DNA of 64,000 nucleotides from Odiellus spinosus (Eukaryota; Arthropoda; Arachnida; Opiliones; Phalangiidae). This document shows positions 10,707 through 64,000 of this stretch, piece after piece. Position 1 is the first letter of the stretch. Each line of letters opens with the position of its first letter. A program made the translations under genes and the position numbers. The DNA lies in NCBI GenBank assembly GCA_963920705.1, contig OY987228.1, positions 18,608,565 through 18,672,564 of the forward strand, read 5' to 3'. The notes beneath the pieces were generated by a model. It saw only the letters and a program-made list of their open reading frames with translations, had not been told where the DNA came from and did not search any database.

Positions 10707-11048
10707 CAGAAGCCGATGAAACCCTCCTTTGAAGTCTACTACTCTAATGTTCCATATAGCGCTCCTCTCTGTATGGGTAAAATTCACAATTTTACGAGTT
10801 AGAAGGGTTCCTACTTCATCCCCCCCCCCGGTCTACGGAAAATTGGAAATTCTCTCTCTCCACAAACGACGACGTTTTTTTGGACGAACTCCAAGGCTGC
10901 TAGAGATATTCGCTCGACGAGCTCCCGCTCCGAAAACATCTACCGTTAGGAGGTGTACGAATCGCGCCTTTTGAGAATAACCCATACAGAGAGGGGTAGA
11001 CAAGACCCGGGAGTAATAGACTTCAAAGGAGGGTTTCATCGGCTTCTG
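10707..11048 (+). mobile_element. Family A inverted-repeat element, copy 1
   Basis: A 342-bp non-autonomous DNA transposon. Both ends carry CAGAAGCCGATGAAACCCTC as the outer part of a ~38-bp terminal inverted repeat (TIR) with one mismatch. Inside, a second shared block, CTCTCTGTATGGGT, occurs in inverted orientation near each end. It is flanked by an exact 7-bp duplication, GTATCAT, at 10700-10706 and 11049-11055. It encodes no protein; the short open frames inside follow the inverted repeats. This copy has a longer C run near 10822 than its siblings. Confidence 0.95.
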
Positions 11049-12110
11049 GTATCATTTACAGAATTTGCTCGAATTCCAAAAACACAATACCACTCATAAA
11101 AAACGTCACACGTACACAAAATCTACTAGGTCAAAACATCTTACCTACCGGCTTAAAAACAGTCAAGGAACGTGTAAACATACAGATTGGGAGCTAAAAA
11201 AACAAACGTCTAGATGGATTCGAATTGTTAGAGTAAATATCGAGTGTGTGTCAGGGTTATAAGGTTTGTAAAAAAAAATCCAGTAGCATTATTGTAACGC
11301 GAAGGAAGCGGTGTCCATCAATGCCTTTAGGGCTGGTCAAAAGAAGAGAGGTCATATATCGGCGACAATAAAAGGAAATGGAACTTTCCACCGCCCGAGG
11401 TTGTCTACGAATCAAACGAAGCGCTTAATATAATATAAGGGTACACGCGTCAGGATCAGAGGGGGACAACTCCGCGAAATAACGAGGCTTAGCTCTACAA
11501 TTGTTATTCGGACACTCATCCATGAGTACGGAAAATGGTCAAATTGACACCGTAACAAGAGGGAGAGCAAGAAATGATAAAGAATAGCGTGTGTCCCTTG
11601 TCGTCGTACGTTTTTTTAGCAATCTTATATATGTAACAAGAAATCCCAGTGTTTTTCTATATTTTGGTCTTAAGTGCATGAATTAAATTTTGCATCTTTG
11701 GACAGCGGCGTTTTTAAAATGTAACACTAACGATCTAGACTGAAGGGCCTCGGGACGTCTCGTAAAAAACCTTTTCCCTTCAATACATTGTCGTTTTGTC
11801 TATATAAATATATATATCGTCACTCATATTTGCAATTTCACAGAATACCACCGAGATAATTAGAACAAAATTATGCAGAAATGACATGTACGTGTGTTTA
11901 TGAACCGTAAAAGCGAGAAAAAGTTTAATAATCTTTGCGTAACGTCATTATTTAAACCGTACAAAAATAGCGTGAATAATCGCGCCTATATTATATGACT
12001 AGATGATGAGTTCATCAACAGGAAACCGTATAAAGGAAAAATCCGAAATTGAAATGATAGGCCTTTTTAATTATTAATAGACAGCAAAGAGCCAAGGGGG
12101 AAAGAAAGCC

Positions 12111-12183
12111 TGACGTCATGAAACCCCTTACTGGGAGAGCGCTTGTAAGGGCGAATACTCTAACTCTCTCACTAAGGGGATGA
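12111..12183. other. Near-perfect hairpin next to a TGACGTCA motif
   Basis: CCCCTTACTGGGAGAG (12124-12139) pairs with CTCTCTCACTAAGGGG (12164-12179): 15 of 16 positions pair if one G-T is allowed, around a 24-base loop. Flanking GTCA and TGAC can extend the stem. A palindromic TGACGTCA (CRE-like) lies just before it at 12111-12118. It could be a structured RNA, a regulatory site or a small relic inverted repeat. Confidence 0.4.
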
Positions 12184-12875
12184 CACCGAGGTCAGAGGTA
12201 GAAACCTATGACGTGTCAATGTTTCCCTTGCTGACTCTCTATACTAAACATTTAGAAATGTATTTTCAAATACCAAAAAGTGTGACAAAAAAAAATACGC
12301 CGATATTTGAAATAGTCCTTCATTTTTAGTTTGGAGTTTTACTTTAAAATTGACTCAATTAAAATTCTTCGTTTGGCGAAAATCGTTTCCGAACGTATCG
12401 AGGAAATAATGATGATCATCATTCATACACGTAAAACCCAACCTATGATTATATCCGAAAAATTGCGCGACCGTATCATTTTGACGTAAGCCTAATTGAA
12501 CTCATATAAGACAGAAGTACGCGTAAGAAATAAATAAAAAAAATACAATCACTAAGATAAGTGGTCTTGATTAATGAACGTCATGCCAAGGAATATTTCT
12601 GTCGAAAACAATGCAAACTTTTGATAAGTCCATTAAAAGGGCGACCAACTTTTTTCTTTCCGGGAAGAAAATCATTTTTATACGAGGGCTTAACTATAGG
12701 ATTCGTAATTTTAAACAGTTTACTATCAATCCATTAGTGATCGTTCGTCGATTTTTGATTTATAATTTCATCGCGTAGAAACGCGTTGACGAGAAAGAAC
12801 AAGTATCGTAAAATTGTGCCAAGAATTCATTATGAACCCGATTCAGTCATTTAATTTAAACGAATTTTTAGTTAA

Positions 12876-13604
12876 AGGGAAAATGCAACCTAAGTGATTT
12901 TTTTTATCGATTCCTTACCGTTTAAATAGGCCTAATCCATGGATTAATCAACCTCACAGGGATAATTCACTCTGGTACGATTTGCTATACTAGTAGTTGA
13001 AGATGTTCGTTTCAAACATGCCTGCCAGACATTTTATCCGGCCCCTCAATTTTAACCCCTTACCGATACAAATCCGGAAGTAATCCATGCATGAGAGCAT
13101 CGTCTGCTTTTAGAGTTTTTTTCCCCTTCAATATTTCACCCCGTGTATCGGAAGCTAGAAACTTCCGGTGTAGACAATTTTTGTCACCAAGGTGCGATTC
13201 GAACAATCATTTTACCAGAGTGAATTATCCCTGCGAGGTTGATTAATCCATGCCTAATCCAACGGTAAAAACATTTACAAACAATTTATTAAACTAGAAA
13301 TAAATTTAAAACTTACCATCAAAATAGGCTTAGCTGGATTCATGGATATATCCTGAGCTGCTGGTATAAGGACTAGGACCAATGGAGATCCTGCATCCCC
13401 CGTATAAGACCCATCTATTGGTAGCTCTAGTCCTTAAATGGAGAGTTCAGGTGATCTCCATGAATCCAGCTAAGCCTATTTTTATGGTAAGTTTTAAACT
13501 TATTTCTAGTTTAATATTTGTTTTTAATATTTGTTTTTAATTTTTTAAATAGTGGATTAGGCCTATTTAAACGATAAATAATTGATTAAAAATCACTTGT
13601 TTAA
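12876..13604. mobile_element. Family B palindromic element, copy 1 (interrupted)
   Basis: The left end is TTAA (12872-12875) followed by AGGGAAAATGCAAC, then an arm containing GTGATTTT and ATCGATTCCTTA. The same arm returns inverted at about 13549-13598. The centre holds a second palindrome at about 13313-13500, built on AAAATAGGCTTAGCTGGATT and its inverse. The element resembles copy 2 at 59193-59624 throughout, except that a 313-bp element is inserted at 12939-13251. The right outer end is eroded, so its boundary is approximate. No coding capacity is visible. Confidence 0.75.
12939..13251. mobile_element. Element M1: 313-bp nested transposon with 9-bp target duplication
   Basis: The 39-bp inverted ends begin ATGGATTAATCAACCTC (12939-12977 and 13213-13251) and differ at one position. 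The exact 9-bp direct repeat GCCTAATCC flanks it (12930-12938 and 13252-13260). Removing the element and one repeat restores the order seen in the second family B copy, where GTCTAATCC at 59251-59259 runs straight into AACATT. A 9-bp duplication fits the Mutator-like superfamily (8-11 bp), but termini alone do not prove it. No transposase is encoded. Confidence 0.88.
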
Positions 13605-14485
13605 ATTACTCAACATAAACTAGCAGTATTGCGCGTAGTGCTAATATATATATATATTCTCGTCTATGAAGAAGAGCTGAACTATCCTTCGTCGCAAAAA
13701 GGCGCGAAACAAATAGAGAAAGGGCGTTAACTAGCTATATACTTTAATAAATTAGCCAGGAGAGGCGCTTTGGTACTTGAACTTGTTACTAAGGCTTGAA
13801 TTCAGCCAAAATAAATATAAGGTCCTAAGCGAAAACTTTAGGAAAGTAACGTATTTTATTGGTTTAGACCAATATTTAGTAAAATTAAACTTTATTAAAA
13901 CAAATGGTGATCTAACCCGCACTTCATCATCCCTTTAAAAGAAAGAAATGTTTCGGATATAACTTGCCCTTTAAGTTCTTAGCAATTACTAGAGAATAGA
14001 GTCCATCATTATTTCTAAACCATCAACAAGATAAGCCATCAATAATATGTATTTGTGCTGGGAAATATTATATATTGAAGGCCAATATTAAAATTCAAAG
14101 TCTGACTGTGGAACGAATGATGTTTACATACGTAGCTATTTAACAACTGGAAAATAAGCCTAATTCTTTTTTCTTATTTGGTTGGTTTCGCTCGCGTGAT
14201 TGGATTTCAAACGTATAGCGTGTATAATAATAAGAGAAGGCTTATGAAGGGTCTCCTCAGAATATTACAAAGACTGTCGAGTATATGGATTCACGTACAC
14301 GGTACAAAAGATATTGCTCTGATAAGGGGTCGAAAGGGGTATAATATAATAAAATATAATATAATAAAGAATCGTTTGATATCAATTGAAGTTTAACGAA
14401 ATCTGACAAGTGTGAACTTACAACACCCGTGTAATATAAATGGGCTGGTGGGATGGTACCATCATAGGTACTACCACCTTTTTAA

Positions 14486-15125
14486 AGTGAGACTGTCACG
14501 ACATTTTCATGAACTCTAAATTGAAATTGAGTAAAATTTTCGGAAAGATCGTTAAAAAACGATTCAAAATATATATATATATACATATGCAGAAGCCGAT
14601 GAAACCCTCCTTTGAAGTCTATTACTCCCGGGTCTTGTCTACCCCTCTCTGTATGGGTTAGTTTCAAAAAGCGCGATTCGTTCGCCTCCTAACGGTAGAT
14701 ATTTTCGGAGCGGGAGTTCGTCGAGCGAATATCTCTAGCAGCCTTGGAGTTCATCAAAAAAACGTCGTCGTTTGTGGAGAGAGATAATTTCCAATTTTGC
14801 GTAGACAGGGGGTATGAAGTAGGACCCCTCCGATCTCGTAAAATTGGGAATTTTACCCATACAGAGAGGAGCGCTATATGGAACATTAGAGTAGTAGACT
14901 TCAAAGGAGGGTTTCATCGGCTTCTGACATATGTCAGAGAAAAATTACCGAGACAATAAAAAGAACATAATCGAAATTATTAAAATTCAAATTTCCCGCA
15001 ATAAAACGTCATCACTTCGGTCACGTGGCTATTCTATTGAGCCTACAGTTGATACTCGTGCGTTCTAGCACGTGATTAAGTCGCTTTCGCGCGGTCTTTT
15101 TCGTAAAAGTACTTCAGAAAGTCCT
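14486..15125 (+). mobile_element. Family C repeat, copy 3, carrying family A copy 2
   Basis: The left end AGTGAGACTGTCA follows TTAA (14482-14485). The body matches copy 1 through TTTTCATGAACTC, the AT-rich tract, GTGGCTATTCTATTGAGCC and GCGCGGTCTTTTTCGTAAAA. It is interrupted by family A copy 2 at 14590-14926. The right boundary is indistinct after about 15125. Confidence 0.65.
14590..14926 (-). mobile_element. Family A inverted-repeat element, copy 2
   Basis: A 337-bp copy in the opposite orientation to copy 1, with the same 38-bp ends. The flanking 7-bp duplication ACATATG is exact (14583-14589 and 14927-14933). It is inserted inside a family C repeat. The uninterrupted target survives in another family C copy at 5613-5619, where the sequence on both sides of ACATATG continues as expected for the empty site. 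Confidence 0.95.
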
Positions 15126-16366
15126 ACCTTTCGTTACAGAATAATAAAATGGCTTAAACGAAATTCATTTTGCTACATGTCATCTTTAAGAAAATATTTG
15201 CACAATTATAGCCTAGCTTCTATTTTCGAAATTAAATAGGATCTCATAATACCCTTTTTTTCCTTTTTTAAGATAATTAATCCTAACGTAATCCCCATTA
15301 CCTGCACTTAGGAAAATACTTAAATATTTCTGAAGATTAAAAGTAAAAATATTAAAAAAAACCGTCATCTAAATAGGATAGTATATGCTGTTATAGAAGA
15401 CGAAGTATGAAGCCTGGATACCAAGGGTTTACCATAAAGCCATCATTATTGTCTGAAACATTCTACACGACGATGAATAGTTAAAAACAGGGTGGATGGC
15501 AGCTAGGTCGGATGCGACGCCACGAGGGGTGCCTCGATTCCCGCAGTATAAAAGATGCTATAGAGGGATGAGGGTAGGGGAATCTTCCCCCTATATCCCA
15601 TCTTTTCCCCTAAACGGGGGGATCTGTATAATAGAAGAGCGTGGAGGAGAATCAATACAACGGTTGCAAGGGGGGGGGGGGTTCGATTACGAAACTCTGA
15701 TGGTTTTGACCTCGTGGTGTATGACCCGGCGACAAGAGGCATCTTTTATATTCCTCCTCAATTTCCCCGAATAACCCAAGAGGAAATTTTTTTTTTATTT
15801 AAAAAATAAAATATATATTGAACTTGGAAACTTTATCCCCAAAAAGAGATGGAAAAGATTAAAGCCACAGTCGTTTCTTATCCGTCGTATTTATAGATAT
15901 TTCTAGGGCGATCGTGTCACAGCCGTCAAAGACTCAAAGTCAAAACCAATTCGATTTAGAAATTGTAGTCATAGTATAAGAAGTCATAGTACCAAGTAGA
16001 ACTACTGGAAATTGAGGATCATTAGTAGGCAAGCCGAGTTCGCCATTTAATGTCACGTGGCGCGAACTTTCTCGCTGTTAATTGACCCAATAAGAGCGTC
16101 ATTATACGGCTTCATTATCTTTTCCCTTTCTCTCTACTCCTGGGCCATTATTTATTTAACTGAAACGCGATGTTTTTAAAGGGAGCCTGAACGTAATACG
16201 CGATAACTTCATTTTTAGATTTCTTAGACCTTAAATTATGATATTCAATAAGAAAAGTTAATCTAAAATTGATAAAAAATGGTATTTAAATAAGCCCTTG
16301 ACAACCATTTTGAATAAGAAGATGCGAGCCAATCAAACCTCGTCTGTTTAGTCCGCTATTATAATA

Positions 16367-16393
16367 TCATATATATATATATATATATATATA
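16367..16393. repeat. (AT)n microsatellite
   Basis: About 13 AT steps; self-complementary. No TIR-bearing element boundary is visible at its ends. Confidence 0.8.
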
Positions 16394-16727
16394 CAAGTAA
16401 CTATTGTCCGCCACGGACACCGTAGCGCCATCTAAATTCGAGTAAACCATTTACTTTTTAGTAGTAGAAATCTGATTGGCTGGCATTCCCTTTTTTACAT
16501 GGAACAAATGGTGGAAGATTTGAATACGTCGAGGGAGAAGTAAAACGCTGATTTAAAACTTAATTCTGACGTTAATTAAGGGGAAAGTACATTTTTTTAT
16601 CACTGTATTGCTGTTTAATCAACCAAAAAAGGTTTTTAATTTTTACTTCAGGTTCCCTTTAATACTGCCTATATAATTCCAGCTTTTTACAAGCAACAAA
16701 AAACGCGTTTCTCGATCACGTATTTAA

Positions 16728-16974
16728 TACCCAACTGTTTATCTTCGTCGAGTTTCGTTTCCACTGTCTTTTTTGTTCCATAATTAATAAATAACTAGTC
16801 CCGAATGCTATGCTCTCTGTAATATGGTGTATATATATTAACTGATATATTTTATACGTTGTTAAATATATTTAAAATACTGATTTCAATCGTAGGCATT
16901 AACCAAACTGTTTTATCATTCTCAAGTTTCGTTTCCGCTCTCTTTTTTTGTCCCATAATTAATAAATAATTAGT
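16728..16974 (+). repeat. Direct repeat pair
   Basis: Two ~70-bp units (16728-16797 and 16902-16974) share CAAGTTTCGTTTCC or CGAGTTTCGTTTCC, a T-run, and CATAATTAATAAATAA, TAGT. The AT-rich spacer of about 105 bases is not shared. Confidence 0.6.
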
Positions 16975-18556
16975 AATGTTTACCAAAAATCTATTGAAAT
17001 TTATCAAATAAAGTTTTTACGGATATTTTTCCTATAACTTTGGAGTACTGTAAGTAGAACTATTTTACAGGAGTACAAGGTATGGAAATCTATTTAATTC
17101 TAAGCCATTTAAGTGTGCTTGGGGGCTAGAAACAATAATACAGGTATATACCGATCAATTTCAATATCAAATGCGCTTATTGGACACTCGACGTAATAAA
17201 GCGCGTAAGACCGATTAAATAAAAGTTTAGGTCACCATATTAAAGGTAAATGGAAAGGTACAAAACCCGAGTCACGTCCGGCGTTCGCGGGTTTTACTAG
17301 TAAAAAGAAAAAGAGCGGAATATTACAGCTCCAGTGGTTTTATGATAATTACCTTATCCAATATAATTACCGGGCTATAGCGAAAAAAAAATGTCCCCGA
17401 GCGAAAGTGGATACCCAAGTTCTCTTTAAACAAATATATACAGCCGGGTATACTGTTATTACGTAGTAATCCGGTTGAAATTGATTCCTACGTATAAGAA
17501 CGTGAGAGTGACGCTTTATGTGACCCGAGACATATTTCTTCCCGCTCCAAAAGGTTCGCTTTCCCCTGGTCTCGAGCGGGGTACGGAGCGGCTCTCTTCT
17601 AGGGGTTCAGGGGTAGTTTTTACGTTTAGTCCTCGACCTCTTATAAGAAGGAGAGCTACGGTCGGATCAAGGGGATCCAGGCGAGCGTAAAAAGGCCTTC
17701 TATCCCCTCTCTCCATCTAGACTAAAGAGTAAGGATCTAGAAAGGCCCCCACCAGGAGTTTTCGACCGTCAGTGAAGCATCGAAGCGTCAAACACGATAC
17801 CCCCCATTCCCGAACGCGCGCGTACACACACAATTCTCCCACAAAAATCCCCCTGTATAAAACTAAACCAGTTTCATCTCCAGAACAGAAAGATCTCGCA
17901 AATTCAATTAAGCTAGTTACGGCCGATTGTTTGAGAACGTATTTTTTCCCTTTTCTTTCGAAGCGTGTGGGAAAATGGGATAAACTGTATAGAGAGCTAT
18001 AAGCGCGAGATCTAGAGCTGCCTGTTACAAATAAAAAAATCCTCATTTCGTATTAGAGAGAGAGAGAGATGGAGAGAGGAGAGGAGAAGACCAAGAGGGT
18101 GGACACCCGAAATCCCTACAGCCCCTTTTAAAAAATATCGCTAGGCTTTTCCGTAAAGCATCTATATCGCGCTGCGGTTGTGTCGAGAGCGGTTGGAATT
18201 GCACCAATTTCGATGGAAGGGCCATTTGCGGGCGGCGTTCCTAGTGGAAATGAATCGAGCTGTTATGCCTAAATAGTCTCCCGTGAATCATTCCCCGCGG
18301 TTTTTTATATATACAACGATAAAAAAGATATCCCTACATTTAATCACCCGAAGTATTATAGATTTGTAAAAGAATTTTGCTTTAAAGGGAGGATGTGACG
18401 CCGTATTCTTAAACCGCGTTCCATGCTTTGCATTGTTAATCGACCATTAAATAAAACCCCTCTTAAAAATACCTCAACACCGAGAAATAAAGCGGGTTTT
18501 TTTGGTACTTAATCTGTTATTCTTAATCCATTTGTTTAAAAAAAGGTTTTATTTAA

Positions 18557-18880
18557 AGTGATTCTGTCATGGAATGTTCGTTGGTAAGCCCAAATTACGA
18601 GAGAAGCCCCGAGAAAAAAAGCCTTTGAAGTGAGGCTTTCAAGGATTTTTCATGAACTCTAAATAGAAACTGAGTAGTATTTTCGGAATGATTGTTAAAA
18701 AACATGACATACGTCATAAAAACATTTACAACAACAGTAAAAAACACGTTTTATAATCGCTATTTTCCAAATTTTTTAAAATAAATAAATCCCGGCAATA
18801 CTACGTCATCACAATTGAATTTCTGGCATTATGCACGTGATAAGGTCGCTTCCACCATAACGTTCTCAATAAAGTTTAAT
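18557..18880 (+). mobile_element. Family C repeat, copy 4
   Basis: TTAA (18553-18556) is followed by AGTGATTCTGTCA. A second left-end-like block, AAGTGAGGCTTTCA, at about 18629 leads into TTTTTCATGAACTC and the family C body. The tail contains CACGTGATAAGGTCGCTT. The doubled left end suggests either one copy inserted into another or an internal duplication. Confidence 0.55.
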
Positions 18881-19370
18881 ATTTGGTTTAAACAAATTAA
18901 TAGAAGTTTGATTTTAAATATTTAATTTCAACCTCCCTTTAAAATAAAATCTCACGAGTTCAAAAAAGTTCAAGTAAGGAAAGGGTTATTACCAAAATCA
19001 CCGAAGAAATCCGATTGTTTTTTATATATTTTGATTTTTTTAAGTCAACGAACTACCAGGATTTTGGTAATCTATATACATTGACTCTATAAAGAAAGCC
19101 TATTAAAATTTTAATGGCTAAGCATTAAAGTACCACGCCTAAATCAGGTTGGTTTAAAATTGCTGGGCCATTTAAAGAGAGCGAGCGAAGGGGATGGTTC
19201 GGAATTTTTCCCTTCATCTAGATCGCACCCCGTACCTATATAATACACCCATCGGATGATTGTTTTAAAATAAAAAAAAGTCCTGGCTAAAATACCACCC
19301 AGGAAGACAGTCGGGGATCAAAACCCTTAGTGCTATCCAATTTTTACGACAGCGAATAAGGTCATAAAGC

Positions 19371-20275
19371 TTAATATTATAAAAAAAATTATTATCCCAA
19401 ACCGAGAAATTAGCCATTCCTAATAATTAAATGGAAACTAGGAGCTACAAATAGAACAACTTTTGATTTTATTTTCGGAATCACCATGCTAAGAAACGTA
19501 TTTGTGAATTTTTTCGCAATTTTTAGACACGTTTTTAGTGTTTAAAATAATTTCTAAAGTTTGGTAAAAATTTGGAAAAAGGTGAATATAAAATCGGACC
19601 AATCATATTATTTCAGCCTTCAACAGGGCTTTTAATGTTCGGCGTTTGATATCCAAGGTCTTAGACATCAAACACTGGCCTATTCTTTAAATGTTTCGAC
19701 ATTACAAGCGCTGTCAGAAGCCGATGAAACCCTCCTTTGAAGTCTACTACTCTAATGTTCCATATAGCGCTCCTCTCTGTATGGGTAAAATTCCCAATTT
19801 TACGAGATCGGAGGGGTCCTACTTCATACCCCCCTGTCTACGAAAAATTGGAAATTCTCTCTCTCCACAAACGACGACGTTTGGTTGACGAACTCCAAGG
19901 CTGCTAGAGATATTCGCTCGACGAACTCCCGCTCCGAAAATATCTACCGTTAGGAGGCGTACGAATCGCGCTTTTTGAAACTAACCCATACAGAGAGGGG
20001 TAGACAAGACCAGGGAGTCATAGACTTCAAAGGAGGGTTTCATCGGCTTCTGGCGCTGTTGAAGGCAGAAATAATATGATTGGTCCGAATTTATTATTAC
20101 TTTTTTCCAAATCAATTTAAACATAAAAAAAGTGTTTAAAAATTGTTTTAAAAAATTCTCGATTACGTTTTTTGGCATGGTGATTCCGAAAAAAAAGCTG
20201 CTCCAAGTTTTCCTTTAATATTATATATAAAAAAAAATATCCCAAACCGAGAAATTAGCCATTCCTAGTAATTAA
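19371..20275. mobile_element. Family F palindromic element flanked by ~60-bp direct repeats
   Basis: Two arms of about 160-200 bp are inverted copies of each other. They start TTCGGAATCACCATGC (about 19479) and end with GATTGGTCCG and CCTTCAACAG blocks around the centre, where family A copy 3 is inserted. Outside the arms lie near-identical direct repeats of about 60 bp, 19371-19430 and 20215-20275, both containing ATCCCAAACCGAGAAATTAG. Direct repeats of that length are far too long for ordinary target duplications. No coding capacity is visible. Confidence 0.7.
19715..20052 (+). mobile_element. Family A inverted-repeat element, copy 3
   Basis: A 338-bp copy, same orientation as copy 1. The exact 7-bp duplication GCGCTGT flanks it (19708-19714 and 20053-20059). 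It sits in the centre of a larger palindromic family F element. The unoccupied target GCGCTGT, followed by TGAA as here, is present in the other family F copy at 41698-41704. Confidence 0.95.
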
Positions 20276-22392: not shown

Positions 22393-22730
22393 CAGAAGCC
22401 GATGAAACCCTCCTTTGAAGTCTACTACTCCAATGTTCCATATGGCGCTCCTCTCTGTATGGGTAAAATTCCCAATTTTACGAGTTAGAAGGGGTCCTAC
22501 TTCATCCCCCCCTGTCTACGCAAAATTGGAAATTCTCTCTCTCCACAAACGACGACGTTTTTGGACGAACTCCAAGGCTGCTAGAGATATTCGCTCGACG
22601 AACTCCCGCTCCGAAAACATCTACCGTTAGGAGGCGTACGGATCGCGCCTTTTTGAGAATAACCCATACAGAGAGGGGTAGACAAGATCCGGGAGTAATA
22701 GACTTCAAAGGAGGGTTTCATCGGCTTCTG
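22393..22730 (+). mobile_element. Family A inverted-repeat element, copy 4
   Basis: A 338-bp copy, same orientation as copy 1, flanked by the exact 7-bp duplication GTTGAAG (22386-22392 and 22731-22737). It lies 76 bases inside a family C left end (22317) and only 242 bases from copy 5, which is in the opposite orientation. Confidence 0.95.
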
Positions 22731-22972: not shown

Positions 22973-23309
22973 CAGAAGCCGATGAAACCCTCCTTTGAAG
23001 TCTATTACTCCCGGGTCTTGTCTACCCCTCTCTGTATGGGTTATTCTCAAAAGGCGCGATTCGTACGCTTCCTAACGGTAGATGTTTTCGGAGCGGGAGC
23101 TCGTCGAGCGAATATCTCTAGCAGCCTTGGAGTTCGTCCAAAAAACGTCGTCGTTGGTGGAGAGAGAGAATTTCCAATTTGCCGTAGACAGGGGGGATGA
23201 AATAGGACCCCTTCTAACTCGTAAAATTGGGAATTTTACCCATACAGAGAGGAGCGCTATATGGAACATTGGAGTAGTAAACTTCAAAGGAGGGTTTCAT
23301 CGGCTTTTG
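22973..23309 (-). mobile_element. Family A inverted-repeat element, copy 5
   Basis: A 337-bp copy in the opposite orientation to copy 4, flanked by the exact 7-bp duplication TTTCAAG (22966-22972 and 23310-23316). Its right terminus reads CTTTTG instead of CTTCTG, a single change in the outermost six bases of the inverted repeat. Confidence 0.94.
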
Positions 23310-26325: not shown

Positions 26326-28056
26326 ATGTTATCCTCTAACAAACGGCTCAGAGATTTTTCACCAGTGCATTTAGAAAATGTAATTATAGAGCAGAATTTA
26401 TTTAAAATGTTGGCGAGTCAGGCTATTATGAGAGAATTCATGTTAGATAGATCGAAGAAAGTATTCACCGACGGAATTCTTAGAGTTGAAGGCCAAACTT
26501 ACGACGTTCATAAACTCTTACTGAAAATTTCGAGCCCGTATTTCGTCAAATTGTTCGAAAGCCCTTTAACGGAAGGGCACGATGTAGAACTGAAAGGGGT
26601 GAGTAAAGAAGCCTTCGAGATGATACTAGATTTTTTATACGGAAAGGAATTGGACATAAACGTCGATAACATCGAGGAATTGCTCGTCGCGTCAGACATG
26701 TTTTGCGTCGATCTACTATTCGAAAAATGTCTATTTTACTTCGAAACTCACTGGCGTGAAATTGAGGACGTGTCAACAGTGTACCAATTAGCGGATCATT
26801 TCAAACTAGAGAAAGTCGTACACCAGGTCCTGGTCAAGTTTACCAACGAATACTTGGCGACATTTCCCCTAGGAAAAGACATTTCGGAAGTATCTTACGA
26901 TATAATACGAGCTACTCTAGAAAGCGAGTTTCGGGTTCAAATCACGGAAGAAGAATATTTGATGGAGATTATATGGGAATGGTTACTGCACAATCCGCGA
27001 AACCGCTTAGAACACGCGGAATTTTTGCTTTCGAGGGTAAAACCGGAATGCGTAGCCCCAACGGCGATGGAAAATCGCTTACTTCTGATACAAGATTTAT
27101 TCAAAGACGCTGAAGACGGCCAAGTCACGAGTCAAAGAGTGGTGGATATCCTCCGGAGAAAGTTAACCATAAAAAAGGCTCGAATGACCCAACTGAGAAT
27201 CGCTTTTCGCGTCGCGGACTTCGGTGAACACGACGTGCAAATCGTAGACTCTTTAAACTGGAAGGTTGACCGATTTCTTATAAACTTCAAGATTCAAGAA
27301 ATATTACTGGTAAACGACGTAGTGTACCTTTTCGGAAACAAAAAAGTCTCGACGTACGACTTTCGCTCGCAAATCGTCACTCCTATACTAGAATTGAAAA
27401 ACAGTAAGTTCCGATTCGGAGTAACCGTCAGTTTGGGTTCCCTGTACTTGATTGGTGGAATCGAACAATTGAAGCCTAACCAAGTAACTTCGTTCATCTA
27501 TCAATACGATCGGAAGTTCCAACAATGGTTACCCAGAGTGGGACACGAATCGGGCACATTTTCCTTGTGTTCGCCTTCGATATTGGAAAATGACGGTACT
27601 ATTTATATAGTCGGTGGCGAAAGCAAGGACGGGATACCCATGAAAAAATGCTACAGGTACACCACCACTAGCCAAACATTTTCGAGCTACGACACGACGC
27701 TTTACGTTAAAAAACCTAAATTGGCCGTTAAAGATAATACCCTGTTTATGTTTTCGACCGAAAAGGGTGCCTCACCCGGCTTGCAAAGACTTCATCTTCA
27801 TAGTCAAAGTAAAAACCCCCTTCCCTTAAGCAAAGTTAATTTTCGTTTAAGTTGCGCCGTTCTGGATGTTCTGGCAATCGCGGAGGGAATAGTAGTGGCG
27901 TTTCGGGACGACTCTGAACCCCAAGACGTTTATTTATGCTTGTACCACCCGGAAGAAGATTATCTGGAAACGTTGGGTTACGCGCGCGGTTCTGACCCAA
28001 TATTTAAAGACGACTTATTCGGTAATAATTATAAAGTGTTTTTAAAGCAATTTTAA
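26326..28056 (+). CDS. BTB-BACK-kelch protein, single exon
   Basis: The 576-residue open frame starts at an ATG directly preceded by an in-frame TAG, so it cannot extend upstream without splicing. Residues about 40-140 form a BTB/POZ domain: DGILRVEGQTYDVHKLLL at 49-66, then SSPYFVKLF, matching the family pattern of D-h-x-h-x-V-x-G and H-K-x-h-L. A BACK domain follows at about 145-250, with a W-rich stretch EIIWEWLLHN at 214-223. The C-terminal half (about 320-540) is a degraded kelch region. Only two GG doublets are clear, LIGGIEQL near 375-382 and IVGGESK near 428-434, although kelch propellers usually have five or six blades. Family members typically act as substrate adaptors for Cullin-3 ubiquitin ligases or bind actin; the substrate here cannot be inferred. 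The length is normal for the family. The frame is uninterrupted and is the only confident host gene in the window. Confidence 0.9.
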   Translation: MLSSNKRLRDFSPVHLENVIIEQNLFKMLASQAIMREFMLDRSKKVFTDGILRVEGQTYDVHKLLLKISSPYFVKLFESPLTEGHDVELKGVSKEAFEMILDFLYGKELDINVDNIEELLVASDMFCVDLLFEKCLFYFETHWREIEDVSTVYQLADHFKLEKVVHQVLVKFTNEYLATFPLGKDISEVSYDIIRATLESEFRVQITEEEYLMEIIWEWLLHNPRNRLEHAEFLLSRVKPECVAPTAMENRLLLIQDLFKDAEDGQVTSQRVVDILRRKLTIKKARMTQLRIAFRVADFGEHDVQIVDSLNWKVDRFLINFKIQEILLVNDVVYLFGNKKVSTYDFRSQIVTPILELKNSKFRFGVTVSLGSLYLIGGIEQLKPNQVTSFIYQYDRKFQQWLPRVGHESGTFSLCSPSILENDGTIYIVGGESKDGIPMKKCYRYTTTSQTFSSYDTTLYVKKPKLAVKDNTLFMFSTEKGASPGLQRLHLHSQSKNPLPLSKVNFRLSCAVLDVLAIAEGIVVAFRDDSEPQDVYLCLYHPEEDYLETLGYARGSDPIFKDDLFGNNYKVFLKQF

Positions 28057-55430: not shown

Positions 55431-56110
55431 CGAAAAAAAGACGCGCTTTTTCTTCTTGTCTTTGATCCGAACCGCCCTTCATTATTTCGCCGACAATATC
55501 GCCTAAGATGTCGATTTTTATCGGCTTTGTTACTTGATGGCTCCGAGAAAAATCTCTAAACCTCAAGCTCCTTTTTTTTCGCTCGAAGAAAACCGCCGCG
55601 CGGGTTACGATGATACCACGCGTGACGGGAGGCTCTCGACATTGGTGGTTTTCAAGAATCTTTAATATTTTTCACTACGAAACTATCGCGAGATACGAGG
55701 CCGGAACTCGGCGTACTTAAACCACCTTTTTAAAACTTTCGTCCTGCCTTTCTCCGTAGTATCATCTCGAGATTACGCGAAGCGTAAATTTTGGAAGCCA
55801 AAGAAAAAGTTGAAGACAAAAAAAATTCTTCAAAGGACAGGCGTCGCGTCCGTCGTTTGTTTGGGCAGTGACGTTACGTCTTAGCGACAGAAGCAGCGTG
55901 GCATGATAGGGCCTTTATTTTTTCCACGATCGACACAGAGAGAAAGCCGATTTCTAACGCGCGGGACCAAATAAAAAATAGTTTTCAAGGCGTTCAAGGC
56001 CTCGTGTCTTAAATCTACGAAAGTGATAACAGAGACTCGGATTAAAATTACCAGCCGCACATACTCCCGGTTCGATAAGAAGTAAAGGGGCGAAATGTAA
56101 AAGAAAAATT

Positions 56111-56132
56111 AAAAAAAAAAAAAAAAAAAAAA
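56111..56132 (+). repeat. Poly(A) run, 22 bases
   Basis: A run of 22 A between two moderately G+C-rich segments. No neighbouring element is identifiable. Confidence 0.8.
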
Positions 56133-57491
56133 TTTCTTTCATCTAGTTGCGACATTGATAATCGTTCAATCGGAATAAAACCGTATAAGGGGACTCGAGT
56201 ATAAGGGATTGAAAACGGCACTCCGAACGAAGCCAGCTATTTAAGAACAGCGGCGAGAAGCCAAACGAAAAAGGACCCCCAACCATGAAAATGTCTACGA
56301 TTACTCGACGATCGTCTATCTTTTTCATAAGGTTCGTCACCTCGACTAAGACTAACCATACATCCCATGTATTAAATTACGAGGCCATAGGGTATTTAAT
56401 ACACAAAATATTCAATATAAGGAACCCTGATAATGAAGAATTTCGCTCGAAGAGCTTTCAATAATAAATTATCGCGTGTCCATTTAAATTTTAAAAGATG
56501 ACGGTTAATTTTAACCGAGAGTGATAGATATTTGCTCTGCTATTTCAAATTATATATTAACCCTAAAACATTATGGCCGAATTTCGTAACATTATAATTA
56601 TGTTTTTATGCACATTTTAACTGTCTAGATCAATTAAAACTAATTGTATAATAAATTATAAATAAAAATGAATAATTCCTTCGACGAGGGTAGTTAAAAA
56701 ACTTTTTCGTGGATAATGGAAATTCTTTTAAATACGGTAATAATAATAGACGCGGCTACAAACTAATTTTGTAAGGGGTGTATAATTTATCAAAGTTTGC
56801 AAACAAGAATTACGCAATATATGCTTAATTATAATCGAAGACCCGCTTGCCAATCGCGAGAGAAAATTAATTTCAGACACTATATGACATTCGTTTTAAT
56901 GAGGCTACAAGTATTAGTGAATTCCACATCGACTTGGCAGCCAGGTTTACTTTATTATTATTTAAACAAATCGTAGATATAACGTAGAGTCTAGCTTCGT
57001 TACGAGCTGCCATTTCGAAATGAAATCAACTATATTTAGGGTATATCCAAGAAATTGCCTTTCGCTTTATTTTTTTATTTTTAATCCCAGAGGAATTCTG
57101 GTCATTTTATCTAATGAAATGACGCATATTTTATATACTTTTTTTTTGGGCTTATATCACTTCAAAGTCAAGCGTACGTTACAACGAGTTCGGGAAGCCA
57201 ATATTTACAATTCCCAACACTCCAGAAGCGTTTTTGTCACCGTCAAAACGAAACTAATAGGGGAAACGCGTCGAATTTAGGCGTACGATGCATGTTCGTA
57301 ATTTCGATATCGCGCGCGAGCGTCTAAATCCCTCAAGAATTCCGAGCCAAAGTCGAGCCGTATATATACCGTGGCTTTTGTTTCTACCGTTAAAGCGCTC
57401 TCGATCGATAAAGAGCTAAAACCTAGGACTAAGCCACTGTAGAGACAAAAGCCAGGTTCACACAGACACAAAAAAAATCGCTTCAACTCAC

Positions 57492-57745
57492 TTTAGATAC
57501 GGTCACACTAGAATTTCTTAATCGATTTGAAACGGTAAAATCAAACCGATGTTCAAATCGCCAGAAATCGTTTTAAGCGTCACGTGTTCACGAATTATCT
57601 TTATAAATCGATTTATCGTAGCTTCATCTATCGGTTGTTGAAACCAGCCGAATCGGTACGAAACTGGTTCCCGAAGCAGTTTCGAAAAATCGAATCAAAT
57701 CGATTTCGAGAAAAGAAGGTAACCTGTTTACACGATTCCAATTAG
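57492..57745 (+). repeat. Family E repeat, copy 2
   Basis: Starts ACGGTCACACTAGAATTTC and ends CCTGTTTACACGATTCC, sharing TACGAAACTGGTTCCCGAAG and CGAATCAAATCGATT with copy 1, but with an extra ~120 bases internally. A further GTTCACACTAGAAAC lies at about 57800, so this may be part of a larger array. Confidence 0.6.
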
Positions 57746-57824
57746 GCCTAGCTTTTCTTTTATATAATTGTAAAGTTACATTCATATTAGATATAAGTCG
57801 TGTTCACACTAGAAACTTTGAAGC

Positions 57825-58015
57825 CGTTTTTAATCCAAATGGAAATCGAGTAGCATTTTCGGAAAATTCGTTAAAAACGATTCAAATATATGTAAATATA
57901 CATACGAATAAATTACCGCAACAGTAAAAAAACATATTTTAGAATTACGTCATCACTATGTTAGTTATATTTTACCGTTGAGCCACAGTTACGCCAGCTT
58001 TTAGGTCGTGTTTTC
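57825..58015 (+). repeat. Family C internal fragment
   Basis: Matches the left-centre of family C: AATCGAGTAGCATTTTCGG, GTTAAAAACGATTCAAATAT, then ACGTCATCACT and GAGCCACAGTT. Neither terminus is intact. It directly follows a family E block. Confidence 0.5.
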
Positions 58016-58711
58016 AGTAGTGAGAATCTATAGCTTTAACCCTCAAGTGCGTGTAAACTCTGCTTAAGTCTCGCGAGTTCAAACATAGCCCCAAAAAACC
58101 CCCCAGGCGCCAATTTCCGCCCTTCAACACGATTTTAATTCAAAACCTAAAGTTGACCGCAAGTTTCGCAACCGCCGTACTCGGTACCAACCATCACCTA
58201 GCTTTTCAATGACATTTAAAAAAAAAAAATAAAAATAAAAAATCTAAAAGTAAATTTCGGACAGGCGATTTTCAAAACACGAAGTCAGGGTGGATATAAT
58301 TATACTGAACTATTTTTATCATTACGAGTATTAATATAGCGTATTCATCCGCACCAACTTTCGTCATTTTGCAAACTGCGCTTTAACAATACTAATATAA
58401 TAGCTTTGGGAAAAATATTGGCAAGTGACAAAACGAAGGAATATTAGTGGCTGCAGTATAAAATCAAAGCAAAGTTTTAACATAATTCATATCGTGAAAA
58501 TGGGAAGGTTTTCTAGTTTGATTTAAAGGTGGTTTTAGTAAGCGGGAGATGTCATTTGCAGGCGAGATATTATTCAAAGCCATTAATGGGTGCGTAACCG
58601 TCACCTGTTTAAAATATAATAAGAATACAAACAATACTCTGGGCGATAGCTTTTAACGTATTTTTTTATCTATAAAATAAAATAACAAAAGTGCTAGGAA
58701 CCAATTGATAC

Positions 58712-59048
58712 CAGAAGCCGATGAAACCCTCCTTTGAAGTCTACTACTCCAATGTTCCATATAGCGCTCCTCTCTGTATGGGTAAAATTCCCAATTTTAC
58801 GAGATCGGAGGGGTCCTACTTCATGCCCCCTGTCTACGGAAAATTGGAAATTCTCTCTCTCCACAAACGACGACGTTTTTTGGACGAACTCCAAGGCTGC
58901 TAGAGATATTCGCTCGACGAGCTCCCGCTCCGAAAACATCTACCGTTAGGAGGCGTACGAATCGCGCCTTTTGAGAATAACCCATACAGAGAGGGGTAGA
59001 CAAGACCCGGGAGTAATAGACTTCAAAGGAGGGTTTCATCGGCTTCTG
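58712..59048 (+). mobile_element. Family A inverted-repeat element, copy 6
   Basis: A 337-bp copy, same orientation as copy 1, flanked by the exact 7-bp duplication TTGATAC (58705-58711 and 59049-59055). It is more than 35 kb from the main cluster yet nearly identical to it, which suggests recent spread of the family. Confidence 0.95.
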
Positions 59049-59192
59049 TTGATACTGATGGATAATGGAACTTTAATTTAAATCTGTAAATTAGATGATT
59101 TATAAAAAACTACTCTGATATAGAATTAATTATTTCCAACAAATTGCATTCTTTCATTGCATTTAAAATCAAAATCATTACGTAACGCGTAA

Positions 59193-59624
59193 AGAGATAG
59201 TGCAACGTAACAACAAGTGATTTTTTATCGATTCCTTATCGGTTAAATAGGTCTAATCCAACATTAAAAAAAAATTATAAACAAATATTAAACAAAAAAT
59301 AAATTTAAAACTTACCATCAAAATAGGCTTAGCTGGATTCATGGAGATATTCTTTAACTTCCCGTATAAGGACTAGCGACCAATGAATGACATTGATCAT
59401 GGAGATCCTGCATTCCCCAGATAAGAGACATTGATCGATGGCATTGATCCCTTGTCTTTATATGGGAAGTTAAGGTGAATCCGGCTAAGCCTATTTTCTG
59501 GTTATATTTAAATTTATTTATTGTTTAATATTGGTATTTGAAGGTTTTACTGGTTGATTAGACTTATTTAATCGATAAGGAATCGATAAAAAAAAATCAC
59601 TCGCTTTTAAGTTGCACTCTCCCT
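59193..59624. mobile_element. Family B palindromic element, copy 2
   Basis: An uninterrupted 432-bp copy. The right end reads GTTGCACTCTCCCT followed by TTAA (59625-59628). The left end reads GTAA then AGAGATAGTGCAAC, so one base of the presumed TTAA duplication has changed. It has the same inner palindrome as copy 1, at about 59311-59505. TTAA target sites are typical of piggyBac and Kolobok transposons; which applies here cannot be decided from the ends. Confidence 0.78.
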
Positions 59625-59839
59625 TTAAAAGGCAAATATAAAATTTTAACTTAATTCGGAAATTAAAGTAGAGACGCAACCTAACTCGATTCCGGCCTGG
59701 TTCAAATTGATCTCGCGCCAAGCTCAAAAATATAAAATCTTCAGAAATTGAAAAAATTACCGAGGTGGTTTTTATACGCGTGTGACGTCATAGCTGCTTT
59801 TAATTCCATTGTGTTCCCATACAATAATGAAAGAAATTG

Positions 59840-59954
59840 GCTTAAACCCAATGAGGAAAAATCACCTAAATTGGAAATTTTCAACTACATTCGACTTGCA
59901 AATAGACAAATTTAAAATAACTAGAATTCAACAAAATTGAATTAAATTCAAAAT

Positions 59955-59987
<33 letters not shown>

Positions 59988-60060
59988 TTTTAATCTATTG
60001 AACGGTCGAATTAGGTTGTAAACTTGTAATTTGGATCATTTCTGACCATTGGGTAAGCGC
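59840..60060 (+). repeat. Repeat related to 50.1-50.4 kb, with long T-run
   Basis: AAATAGACAAATTTAAAATA, AGAATTCAACAAAATTGAAT and ATTCAAAATGC parallel the 50-kb repeat. A run of 28 T follows at 59957-59984. Confidence 0.5.
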
Positions 60061-60138
60061 CGTAAGCCCGATTCGTCATAGCAAATAAAACCATTTACAA
60101 ATACATTTTTTTTTTGCTACTGGTAGTCGGCTTTTCCG

Positions 60139-63100
60139 TGAATGAATGAATGAATGGTTTATTTCCTTCCATATAAATGGTCCCTTTTGTATCAGGGAGG
60201 AGTAAAACTCGCAAGGAGTGTAAAATAGACGATACAATGTTAACTAAAGTGAACAGTAAATGGTACTGAGAGCTAAGTTAGAGCAAAGTTAATACGCGTC
60301 GAGTCGTAGGCGACCCCACTGTTGAAGAACGTTTTTTGTGGTGTTCACGAGGTCCCAATCGAACGCCTCTATACCAGTTAGCCCCAAGCAACTTAGGAGC
60401 GTGTCCGCGGTGTTGTGCAGGGATTTTCCCGCGCGCCACTGGGTAAGAGCTGGGCAGATCAGTACCACGTGGGGGATGTCTTCTACTTGCGCCGCGCATA
60501 GGGGACATTCTGGTTCCGCCCCAAAGACATCTGCCAGCCGGCTCGCGGTGGGGAGGGCTCCCGTCCTCGCGAGGAAAAATAGGTGGCTCTTTCGATCGTT
60601 GTTATAGAAAGATTCTACTGCCGGTTTCGGTTTGATGGAATAGTCACTCAGGCTGGTATGTCGTTGTAGTTCTTTCCTCCACCCCTCCTGGGTTCGAAGG
60701 GTGACTGCTTTATCAACCGCACTCAGCCAGTCCCGGAGGTTTGAAACCTCAGCTCGCGATACCGCCGACCCGAATTTCCGATCAAGGTAGGTGGATCTCA
60801 TGGCCCATTTGGTTCTCAGGCCCGTGTGACGAATATACGTGTAAACCAGGAAGGCAACACGCGACTGTTCCATGAACCGAAGACGGCCCATGTATCGCAA
60901 CTTGCTTTTTGCCTCGCGTTCCAGAAAGCTCGACCACGCTAACTCCCCTTTAATCGCCGCGTTCGCAGTGAGGAAATTACCACCGACCGCTAATTTACCC
61001 ACAGAGTTCTGGGCTTGTTCTAGAGCTCGGAGAGTGCTATTTGTGATACAGGCGACCTCATTTCCATAGGTGAGGCAAGGAACCGCCACCGTTTTCCACA
61101 GGGTTCGGGTCACTTTGTATGTGTCGTAGGAGTGGGTTCCCTTGTGTTTGATCGCCCCCACCAGGGTTGTCGCTTTTTTACGGATATTCTCCTCGTGGAG
61201 AGCAAGGTAGGCACTGTCGGTTGTGATCGTGAAACCAAGGTATATGACGGAGGAAACTACGGCTATTCGTTGTCCCTGTATCGCGAACTCCGGCAGAGTG
61301 GTTAAGTCAATATCACTAGGTGGTAGGATGGCGCATTTCGATGCGTTAAACTCCAGTCCGTAGTCGGTCGCGAAGTCGCCACAGATATCAAGGAGCGATT
61401 GTAGTTCCATCGCTGACGCGGCTGCATTAAATATGTCGTCCGCGAAAAACAGTCCCGGAATTTTTCCGTCTATATGGTCGTATGAAGGGTGTTTTAAGTG
61501 AAAACCCAAATTTGACGCCATAAGTCGTGTTTCTAGCGGTTGGAGGTAAAGGGCAAACAGTAAGGGCGACAGTGGACACCCCTGTTTTAGTCCCACATTG
61601 CTTGGGATAAACTCTGTGTCTGTCGTGCCTAGCCAAAACCGGTAGGCAACTTTGGAGTAAAGTTCCTTGATGTGGTGGACGAAGTCTAGTGGGATCCCCA
61701 GTGAGGTCAGCGTTTCCCACAGTTTTTCCCGACACACCGAGTCGTAAGCCTTGCTGAGGTCAAGGAATGCGAGAAAGAGGGGTCGTTGCTCAAGTCTGGC
61801 AATGTCGAGTAGTTGTGTCAATACGAACAGATTATCGGAGGCTCGTCTGTCCCTGCGGAAACCGTTTTGTAGTTCTCCGAGTGAGCCGTGGGTGGACGTA
61901 AAGCTCTCAAGGCGGATCTTTAAAATACTCATATACAACTTACTAATGCATTGGGATAGCGCGATTGGGCGATAAGAGTCTAGAGTTTTTGGGTCCTTTT
62001 TACCCCCTTTGAAGAGGAGTTTGACTTCAGTTAGGTTCCACGCGTGGGGAACGGTGTTATGGGATAAGACTTTATTGAAAATACCACATATCTCCTCACA
62101 CGCCGCGGTGCTCAGGCCCTTGAGCAATTCATTTGTCACTGTGTCTTCCCCTGCCGCTTTACCTGAGGGAAGGGCCCGCAACACTTGTTCGAATTCCGCC
62201 ATAGAAATTTCCGACATGAGCTCACTGCGCAGTTCCGGAATAGGCGGAGGTGGGAGGGTCAACGGGACATCCTGGTGTCTGGAGGTAAAGTGCGACTCCG
62301 TGTCTGACACAAAGCGGGTGATCAGTCCACGGATTTGCTGTGGGTCAGTGTGGCACTGACCATCCTGGGTCTGTAACTCCGGCGGCGGTGAGGGTTTCTG
62401 TGGATCCCGGAAAAGGGACCAAAACTGTTTGCTGGAGTTTTTTCCGGCGCTTTTTATTTTTTTCTCTGTTTCTCGATTTACAGTATTAATCTTTGCCGAC
62501 ACCAAGGTGGCCACCTTCCTTTTGGCCAATAAGAATTTCTCCCATGCATTCTTCAAATTGGGGTCATCGGTCTTGGCTCCTTTTGCCATGCGCCTGTACG
62601 TTTTATTTGCCATTTTACGGTCGCGTATCGCCAGCTTCACCTCCGGGTCAAACCAGCGTTTCAACTTTCTGACCCTGCCCCTGGTGTCGGGAAGCCGTAG
62701 AGTAGCCTCCGCCGCTGTTTGTACAGCGTATTGGAATGTGTCGTATGTTATATCCTCCAGGGGTCGGAGTTGTTCATCCACCGCTAGCTTATACGCGTTC
62801 AGTTTATCCTCATCATCAGTGCACCAACGGGATCTGGAGCGGACAGGGTCCGGGGACCGTGAATGGCGAGGAGCATTTACTAGGAAGCGGGATAGAATAG
62901 CATTGTGGTCGCTGCCTATACTATAAAGCCCATCCTCGTCAACCACCATATCCAACAAGAGGCGGGAAAATTGTCCGTTCAGCAAAACGTAGTCTATTGT
63001 TGATGATTGCCCACGGGCCGACCAAGTGATTTTGCCGGAACACTTCTCAGATAGGTTGCCAATTTGGAGGCCATGGTCGTTAGTGAATGTTTTGAGGATC

Positions 63101-63483
63101 CGCCCATTTCGATCCTCCCGGTTGTCCCTTTCCACGATATGGGCGTTAAGATCCCCAAAGATACCGACGGGTGTTTTACCATTTGGGTTTAGCGCATGGA
63201 GGTCTTTGGAGAGGCAGTGGACAATCGCCTGGTTCCACTCAGGGTTTTCTGGTTCGGTAGCGAGATATACCACAGCTATTAGGAATTTCTTTCGCCCCAC
63301 CGTTAGTTGCATCCAGCAGTGTTCAAAACAGTCAAGCAAAGGAAGGCAAGATACTTCCGGCGTCGAGATGACGCCGATGCCACCACCTTTCTTATCTGAC
63401 AGACGTCTATTCAGGCCGTGCCATTTGTAGCCATCCGATAAGTCCGGATATTGCAGGTCTGAAGCTACACAGATCCAACATTT
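60139..63483 (-). mobile_element. 5'-truncated non-LTR retrotransposon (LINE) with tetranucleotide tail
   Basis: On the minus strand the element reads endonuclease, reverse transcriptase, C-terminal CCHC motif, stop (60289-60291), then a ~130-base 3' UTR. An AATAAA (60158-60163) is followed by a tail of CATT repeats, four TGAA units on the plus strand at 60139-60154. Tails of short tandem units after the polyadenylation signal are typical of several APE-type LINE clades. The 5' end is missing: the frame opens inside the endonuclease domain, and beyond 63483 the sequence turns into AT-rich unique DNA. 5' truncation is the usual result of incomplete reverse transcription. I found no convincing target-site duplication. 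The clade is undecided within the CR1/Jockey/I-like APE elements. Confidence 0.88.
60289..63483 (-). CDS. LINE ORF2: APE endonuclease (partial), reverse transcriptase, CCHC motif
   Basis: The frame is open from just inside a stop at 63484-63486 down to TAA at 60289-60291, about 1,064 codons with no interruption. Numbering from the Leu codon at 63337-63339, the endonuclease shows FGDLNAHI (61-68), TIDYVLL (114-120) and SDH (143-145). Upstream of that Leu, 47 codons still encode endonuclease sequence including KKGGGIGV, but the N-terminal catalytic Asn and Glu motifs are absent. Reverse transcriptase motifs run in order: SYRPIALS (455-462), LQNGFRRDR (490-498), motif A FLDLSKAYD (525-533), motif B GLKQGCPLSPLL (583-594), motif C FFADD (631-635), and YLGFTI (700-705). 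A C-terminal zinc motif C-x2-C-x8-H-x4-C lies at 945-962. The intact frame suggests a recent insertion. The product would lack a complete endonuclease, and no start codon is credible. Confidence 0.9.
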   Translation of the reverse strand, partial: KCWICVASDLQYPDLSDGYKWHGLNRRLSDKKGGGIGVISTPEVSCLPLLDCFEHCWMQLTVGRKKFLIAVVYLATEPENPEWNQAIVHCLSKDLHALNPNGKTPVGIFGDLNAHIVERDNREDRNGRILKTFTNDHGLQIGNLSEKCSGKITWSARGQSSTIDYVLLNGQFSRLLLDMVVDEDGLYSIGSDHNAILSRFLVNAPRHSRSPDPVRSRSRWCTDDEDKLNAYKLAVDEQLRPLEDITYDTFQYAVQTAAEATLRLPDTRGRVRKLKRWFDPEVKLAIRDRKMANKTYRRMAKGAKTDDPNLKNAWEKFLLAKRKVATLVSAKINTVNRETEKKIKSAGKNSSKQFWSLFRDPQKPSPPPELQTQDGQCHTDPQQIRGLITRFVSDTESHFTSRHQDVPLTLPPPPIPELRSELMSEISMAEFEQVLRALPSGKAAGEDTVTNELLKGLSTAACEEICGIFNKVLSHNTVPHAWNLTEVKLLFKGGKKDPKTLDSYRPIALSQCISKLYMSILKIRLESFTSTHGSLGELQNGFRRDRRASDNLFVLTQLLDIARLEQRPLFLAFLDLSKAYDSVCREKLWETLTSLGIPLDFVHHIKELYSKVAYRFWLGTTDTEFIPSNVGLKQGCPLSPLLFALYLQPLETRLMASNLGFHLKHPSYDHIDGKIPGLFFADDIFNAAASAMELQSLLDICGDFATDYGLEFNASKCAILPPSDIDLTTLPEFAIQGQRIAVVSSVIYLGFTITTDSAYLALHEENIRKKATTLVGAIKHKGTHSYDTYKVTRTLWKTVAVPCLTYGNEVACITNSTLRALEQAQNSVGKLAVGGNFLTANAAIKGELAWSSFLEREAKSKLRYMGRLRFMEQSRVAFLVYTYIRHTGLRTKWAMRSTYLDRKFGSAVSRAEVSNLRDWLSAVDKAVTLRTQEGWRKELQRHTSLSDYSIKPKPAVESFYNNDRKSHLFFLARTGALPTASRLADVFGAEPECPLCAAQVEDIPHVVLICPALTQWRAGKSLHNTADTLLSCLGLTGIEAFDWDLVNTTKNVLQQWGRLRLDAY

Positions 63484-63663
63484 TTACAGGGGCCCATTGA
63501 ATTTACATTATGATGGTTCACCCTTAAAGGTGGCTTAGCCCAAAATTTTCGTTTCAGTGTATAATTGTTTAAAATTATGAAATTTACTGTGGGAAATTTT
63601 AATTTTAAAAATTTGATTTTAAAATATTATTTTTTATTGTCGCTTAAATTTCTTCTATGATAT

Positions 63664-64000
63664 TAGAAGCCGATGAAACCCTCATTTGAAGTCTATTACT
63701 CCCGGGTCTTGTCTACCCCTCTCTGTATGGGTTATTCTCAAAAGGCGCGATTCGTACGCCTCCTAACGGTAGATGTTTTCGGAGCGGGAGCTCGTCGAGC
63801 GAATATCTCTAGCAGCCTTGGAGTTCGTCCAAAAAACGTCGTCGTTTGTGGAGAGAGAGAATTTCCAATTTTCCGTAGACAGGGGGCATGAAGTAGGACC
63901 CCTCCGATCTCGTAAAATTGGGAATTTTACCCATACAGAGAGGAGCGCTATATGGAACATTGGAGTATAGTAGACTTCAAAGGAGGGTTTCATCGGCTTC
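63664..64000 (-). mobile_element. Family A inverted-repeat element, copy 7, cut by window end
   Basis: The sequence matches the orientation of copies 2 and 5 to within the last two bases of the element, then the window stops. The left terminus reads TAGAAG rather than CAGAAG. The 7 bases to its left are ATGATAT (63657-63663). If the family rule holds, the next bases outside the window should be TG, or a one-base variant, followed by ATGATAT. Confidence 0.9.

Follow-up and report, generated by a model that had tools for sequence, protein, structure and literature searches.

A 340-bp Transposon Family with 7-bp Target Duplications in Odiellus spinosus: a Probable Non-autonomous Member of the P Superfamily

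Introduction

The P superfamily of DNA transposons includes the closest described systems to the elements reported here, a family of ∼340-bp miniature inverted-repeat transposable elements (MITEs) found in a 64,000-nucleotide stretch of the genome of Odiellus spinosus (assembly GCA_963920705.1, contig OY987228.1, positions 18,608,565 to 18,672,564; “the window”). The P element has a 31-bp terminal inverted repeat (TIR) plus 11-bp subterminal inverted repeats, and its transposase cuts 17 bp inside the 31-bp repeats, leaving a donor break that end joining can repair (PMC7776569). Galileo leaves target site duplications (TSDs) of 7 bp with the consensus GTAGTAC, GTANTAC, or GTATTAC and has a 15-bp palindromic target motif, AANGT...ACNTT; three 8-bp exceptions are described for Galileo of D. 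willistoni (PMC4168063; PMC2775673).

The MITE of the window is very probably a non-autonomous member of the P superfamily, moved by the P-type transposase of another element. The case for membership is built from its TSD length, target sites, structure, and scars and from the 7-bp TSDs of P elements elsewhere in the genome rather than from a transposase of its own. We regard it as a probably new, non-autonomous family within a superfamily that is already known. The first-pass annotation of the window, which placed P near 8 bp, had suggested an uncommon or undescribed superfamily, but 7-bp TSDs occur both in Galileo, of the P superfamily (PMC2775673; PMC4168063), and in four P elements of this genome, and the suggestion is not supported.

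Copies, duplications, and targets

The repeated ∼340-bp elements are real. Six copies of 337 to 342 bp begin where the first-pass annotation placed them, each with the exact 7-bp TSD listed there and with no 8-bp repeat at those ends; a seventh complete copy (63664) had been overlooked. The termini described, CAGAAG...CTTCTG, hold generally, except that the right end of the copy at 22973 reads CTTTTG, with one base changed. In the window, 13 matches to the common 28-bp end were counted (≤3 mismatches), against none in 100 shuffles. The copies are as follows.

Copy 1: 10707..11048, + strand, 342 bp, TSD GTATCAT
Copy 2: 14590..14926, − strand (inverted relative to copy 1), 337 bp, TSD ACATATG
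Copy 3: 19715..20052, + strand, 338 bp, TSD GCGCTGT
Copy 4: 22393..22730, + strand, 338 bp, TSD GTTGAAG
Copy 5: 22973..23309, − strand (inverted), 337 bp, TSD TTTCAAG, right end with one base change
Copy 6: 58712..59048, + strand, 337 bp, TSD TTGATAC
Copy 7: 63664..64000, ending 2 bp beyond the window, − strand, TSD ATGATAT, TAGAAG end

Copy 4 alone can also be read with a 9-bp repeat, GGTTGAAGC, and ends one base shorter. Copy 6 has a twin at G000:C12:15698399, identical across the 335 bases compared.

The window is part of a 443-Mb, 286-contig genome, which was searched with 335 bp of copy 6; 40 of 371 candidates were scored, counts are lower bounds, and the copies listed have 96 to 100% identity to copy 6. 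Copies in the window and in fetched loci (numbered L) were accepted if their ends had ≤4 mismatches in 28 bases, their length was 200 to 420 bp, and their flanks were readable, giving a non-random sample of best DNA matches and chosen variants. These limits exclude L030 and L036, the latter nonetheless with an exact 7-bp TSD. Among 44 distinct copies, exact repeats of 7 bp flank 31, of 8 bp none, and of 12 bp one, and 12 have no exact repeat. Four of these 12 (L012, L014, L027, and L029) have 7-bp flanks with one mismatch; the remaining eight, including the tandem copy L013 and the inner copy of the composite L038, are without matching flanks. In this sample, the tabulation of TSDs that the first-pass annotation recommended is dominated by 7 bp, with exact 8-bp repeats absent, and supports its view that 7 bp is a genuine property of the transposase, which therefore makes its two target cuts 7 bp apart.

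Base preferences were analyzed at 32 insertion sites, including that of an added copy (L087), and extend beyond the duplication. T is favored at position −2 (24 sites) and at position 2 (25 sites) and A at position 6 (24 sites) and at position 10 (26 sites), where −2 lies three bases before the TSD, 10 lies three bases after it, and 2 and 6 are inside it (binomial P of 2e-8 to 1e-6 versus window composition). The mean agreement of the TSDs with the Galileo consensus GTANTAC is 3.06 of 6 positions, versus 1.62 for 7-mers of the window and a maximum of 2.23 in 2,000 random sets; the MITE has, like Galileo, 7-bp TSDs, and their sequences resemble GTANTAC.

Anatomy and the P elements of the same genome

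In structure the MITE agrees with the P superfamily, in which a TIR of ∼31 bp with C as its first base is accompanied by a subterminal inverted repeat. In four of the six copies first listed, the TIR is 32 bp, or 38 bp with one mismatch; copies 3 and 5 carry additional changes in their TIRs. The parts of copy 6 are the following.

58712..58743, + strand: left TIR, 32 bp (38 bp with one mismatch)
58769..58783, + strand: left subterminal inverted repeat, CCTCTCTGTATGGGT, 15 bp
58980..58994, − strand: right subterminal inverted repeat, 15 bp
59017..59048, − strand: right TIR, 32 bp

The 15-bp subterminal repeat is placed 58 bp from one end and 55 bp from the other, and self-folding of copy 6 is far stronger than that of its shuffles, none of 100 reaching it.

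A search for PF21787, the P-type RNase H domain, gave at least 150 scored matches above the cutoff (386 candidates) in this genome and matches in none of 14 control genomes. Six P elements were fetched with 8 kb around each (L062 to L067), and a second TSD scan admitted any flanking repeat from 4 to 10 bp. Four of the six yielded both ends, each with a TIR of 31 to 38 bp and an exact 7-bp TSD; 7 bp is therefore the habit of the sampled P elements in this genome. The TSDs of the MITE (31 of 44 copies) and of these P elements (4 of 4) are of equal length, within the 7 to 8 bp of the superfamily.

L062:2106-7775: P element, TIR 38 bp, TSD GTCTGTC
L063:1810-5586: P element, TIR 31 bp, TSD TTTGAAG
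L065:1641-6221: P element, TIR 35 bp, TSD GTTTATA
L067:1936-7253: P element, TIR 35 bp with one mismatch, TSD GTAGAAT

In the stretches fetched for L064 and L066, no TIR pair with a flanking repeat was found, L066 having one weak 6-bp pair with two mismatches. A subterminal repeat of 16 bp is present in L063, and the other three elements with both ends have none of ≥12 bp. In all six, long open reading frames (ORFs) combine PF21787 with PF21788, a GTP-binding domain, and THAP was found in two (L062 and L063). Against the Drosophila P transposase of solved structure (6p5a), the L063 ORF gives a match with an E value of 3.3e-21, and the catalytic residues D230, D303, and E531 of the former align with D, D, and E of the ORF (counted in the alignment).

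Separately, dispersed copies of P elements are nearly identical, at 99.9% (L049, L050, L051, and L053) or at 100% over 3,432 bp (L055 and L057). So little divergence suggests that the elements were active very recently or that the segments were copied recently.

Short remnants as probable excision scars

Scars were counted as CAGAAGCCG and its reverse complement, both 9-base ends exact, at set distances. Such pairs occur in 40 places at a spacing of 18 to 48 bp (32 distinct sequences), in one place at 49 to 79 bp, and in none at 80 to 110 bp; their sizes center on 31 to 38 bp, and in 23 of the 40 no more than 17 nucleotides (nt) of end is kept on each side. A remnant class with so sharp a size limit is expected of a P-type inside cut, whereas random internal deletions should rise in number with size.

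Tiny elements consisting only of ends were first met as odd matches in end searches (L059, L061, L071, and L088). Flanks were read for five remnants, of which only L061 belongs to the 40 counted scars; two 50-bp remnants with altered right ends (L059 and L071:101-150) fall outside the counts. Exact 7-bp repeats flank L088 (GTATAAG) and L071:31-62 (ATATATC, inside an AT repeat), L059 and L061 match at six of seven positions, and L071:101-150 has no repeat.

Replication slippage through the 340-bp palindrome might also delete the interior of an element, in which case the short remnants would not be excision scars; the remainder of the argument would be untouched. The MITE folds far better than its shuffles (z of −11.4), and some remnants are joined at 2-nt overlaps, as slippage would have it. 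Nevertheless, in 20 of the 40 remnants the ends are separated by 1 to 15 bases that come from neither of them, as would be expected if a break had been repaired by end joining, and extra junction bases also occur with two further end types (below). We consider slippage a possible but rather unlikely source of the remnants and continue to read them as scars.

The two further end types among the scars are CAGAAGCCGATAGATACTAT (type B) and CAGAAGCCGATGGAAACTAT (type C), compared in scars over 20 bases only. Elements with B ends measure 638, 946, and 1,056 to 1,060 bp; one of 1,056 bp (C263:51878-52933) has a perfect 37-bp TIR and the TSD CTAATAT. No Pfam match was obtained for two short peptides of family B, and there was no convincing match to the P loci, within 691 of its bases and flanks. 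Repbase assigns non-autonomous elements to the same superfamily if their TSDs are of equal length and their first 11 bases match (PMC4455052), and family B agrees with the MITE in both respects. It is conceivable, and offered tentatively, that the CAGAAGCCGAT-ended families (the MITE, the 1,056-bp family B, and C) make up a separate P-like lineage, with a fixed 7-bp target stagger, a transposase that is lost or so far unseen, and dozens of scars recording an inside cut of 17 to ∼24 nt.

Rival superfamilies

Ends of hAT elements often begin with CAG, and T at position 2 with A at the last-but-one position of the TSD is a habit of that superfamily. The MITE has both features, and a hAT-superfamily MITE leaving 7 rather than 8 bp could thus be considered. 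We think it improbable. An exact 8-bp TSD is found in none of the 44 copies. Scars of hAT elements consist of a few bases at the junction, whereas those of the MITE retain 9 to 24 nt of both ends. P is further favored by the 15-bp subterminal repeat and by the genome's own P elements with their 7-bp TSDs, the local comparison covering P elements.

An undescribed or rare superfamily, or one like Mutator or Dada, is at least as improbable. Five end-pattern searches, with 15 of the listed places fetched, revealed no transposase with the ends of the MITE, and 7 bp by itself would accommodate Dada. Conversely, all structural features tested fit P, and 7-bp TSDs are published for Galileo of the P superfamily. 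The transposase family search of the genome covered the P type.

Search for a transposase-bearing partner

The first-pass annotation had also advised a search for longer, transposase-encoding elements that share the ends of the MITE. Five end-pattern searches excluding the interior of the MITE gave 315, 43, 143, 32, and 27 places, of which 100 of the 315, 100 of the 143, and all of the 43, 32, and 27 were listed. Fifteen odd places were fetched (L059 to L061, L068 to L071, L072 to L077, L087, and L088), including some of those in the set of 27. They hold MITE copies (truncated or interrupted ones included), mini-remnants, and, in L060, a relative of 266 bp; a longer element with both ends is not among them. 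In addition, 14 of the 150 P loci were checked for MITE ends, eight of them via 5' windows (L078 to L085). A start, CAGAAGACAC, at the expected end position in L078 was dismissed as chance, no matching right end being present within 2.2 kb beyond L039.

Two of the fetched places hold other sequences. The 266-bp element of L060 (reverse complement, 101-366) is a diverged relative of the MITE with the TSD TTTTGAG, and the same locus (reverse complement, 4167-4483) holds an element of 317 bp whose ends are CAGAAATAGATGAACCG and whose TSD is GTATAGG (read by eye), which is another small family with CAGAA ends and a 7-bp TSD. In L076, an insertion within a MITE copy contains AACCTAACCTAACCTAA, resembling the arthropod telomere repeat, TTAGG, a pointer to the host group.

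Other features of the window

An ORF of 1,064 amino acids (aa) with the endonuclease and reverse transcriptase domains of a non-long-terminal-repeat retrotransposon (60289-63483, − strand) adjoins MITE copy 7, and a single-exon BTB-BACK-Kelch ORF of 576 aa lies at 26326-28056 (+ strand). A further small transposon may lie at 12939-13251, where a 313-bp stretch carries an inverted repeat of 17 bp (ATGGATTAATCAACCTCAC...) and is flanked by a 9-bp repeat, GCCTAATCC. Apparent 6-bp pairs, AGCGCT, GAGCTC, and CGTACG, were rejected, being palindromes within pairs of MITE copies.

Discussion

From the ends, the TSDs, the target preference, the scars, and the local P elements, all observed here, we infer both that a P-type transposase moves the MITE family and that it makes a 17-nt cut. 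A P-type transposase from another element would bind the CAGAAGCCGATGAAACCC ends of the MITE and cut one strand precisely at the transposon's 3' ends and the other ∼17 nt inside each terminal repeat. Insertion with a 7-bp stagger into a target of the T..T...A..A type would produce the 7-bp duplication, and joining of the donor breaks without a template would leave scars made of the outer 9 to 24 nt of both ends.

A number of observations weigh against the assignment to P. First, neither the 15 fetched odd places nor the 14 of 150 P loci yielded a transposase-bearing element with CAGAAGCCG ends, and the four P elements have CATAGA, CGGTGC, CGTTGC, and CTTGGA as their terminal bases, not the CAGAAG of the MITE. 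Second, the scars are not uniform: more than 17 nt is kept on one or both sides in 17 of 40 (up to 24 nt and once 38 nt), and in 3 of the 23 short ones (C3:14958036, C5:11958958, and C7:1663165) a point change merely halts the comparison. Third, a single copy, L022, has the 12-bp flanking repeat, and there is no excess of palindromy inside single TSDs (9,577 of 10,000 column shuffles reach the observed value). To these must be added two of the differences described below, namely, the outer target motif of Galileo and the TSD length in Anopheles gambiae.

Duplications of 7 bp need not signal a new superfamily: the target stagger of the P superfamily is 7 or 8 bp, and the sampled P elements of this genome use 7 bp. 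The scars, if confirmed, would make the long inside cut of P-type transposases readable from an ordinary assembly, beyond Drosophila P.

Three described systems may be compared with the MITE. The P element of Drosophila melanogaster likewise has a 31-bp TIR and subterminal inverted repeats, and it encodes a THAP/RNase H/GTP-binding transposase that makes a 17-nt staggered donor cut (PMC7776569); unlike the MITE, it has an 8-bp TSD, and its 11-bp subterminal repeats lie farther from the ends. The P-MITEs of Anopheles gambiae are also short, with TIRs of 27 to 31 bp, and are moved by P transposases, but they and the P elements of that species have 8-bp TSDs, in contrast to 7 bp here, and their masters are identified, unlike that of the MITE (PMC1562414). 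Galileo, of the P superfamily in Drosophila, resembles the MITE in its 7-bp TSDs, its AT-rich GTANTAC target, and its mostly non-autonomous copies (PMC4168063; PMC2775673). Its TIRs are long and internally repetitive, compared with 32 to 38 bp in the MITE, and its outer motif, AANGT/ACNTT, has A at position −2, where the MITE prefers T; this comparison is one of descriptions.

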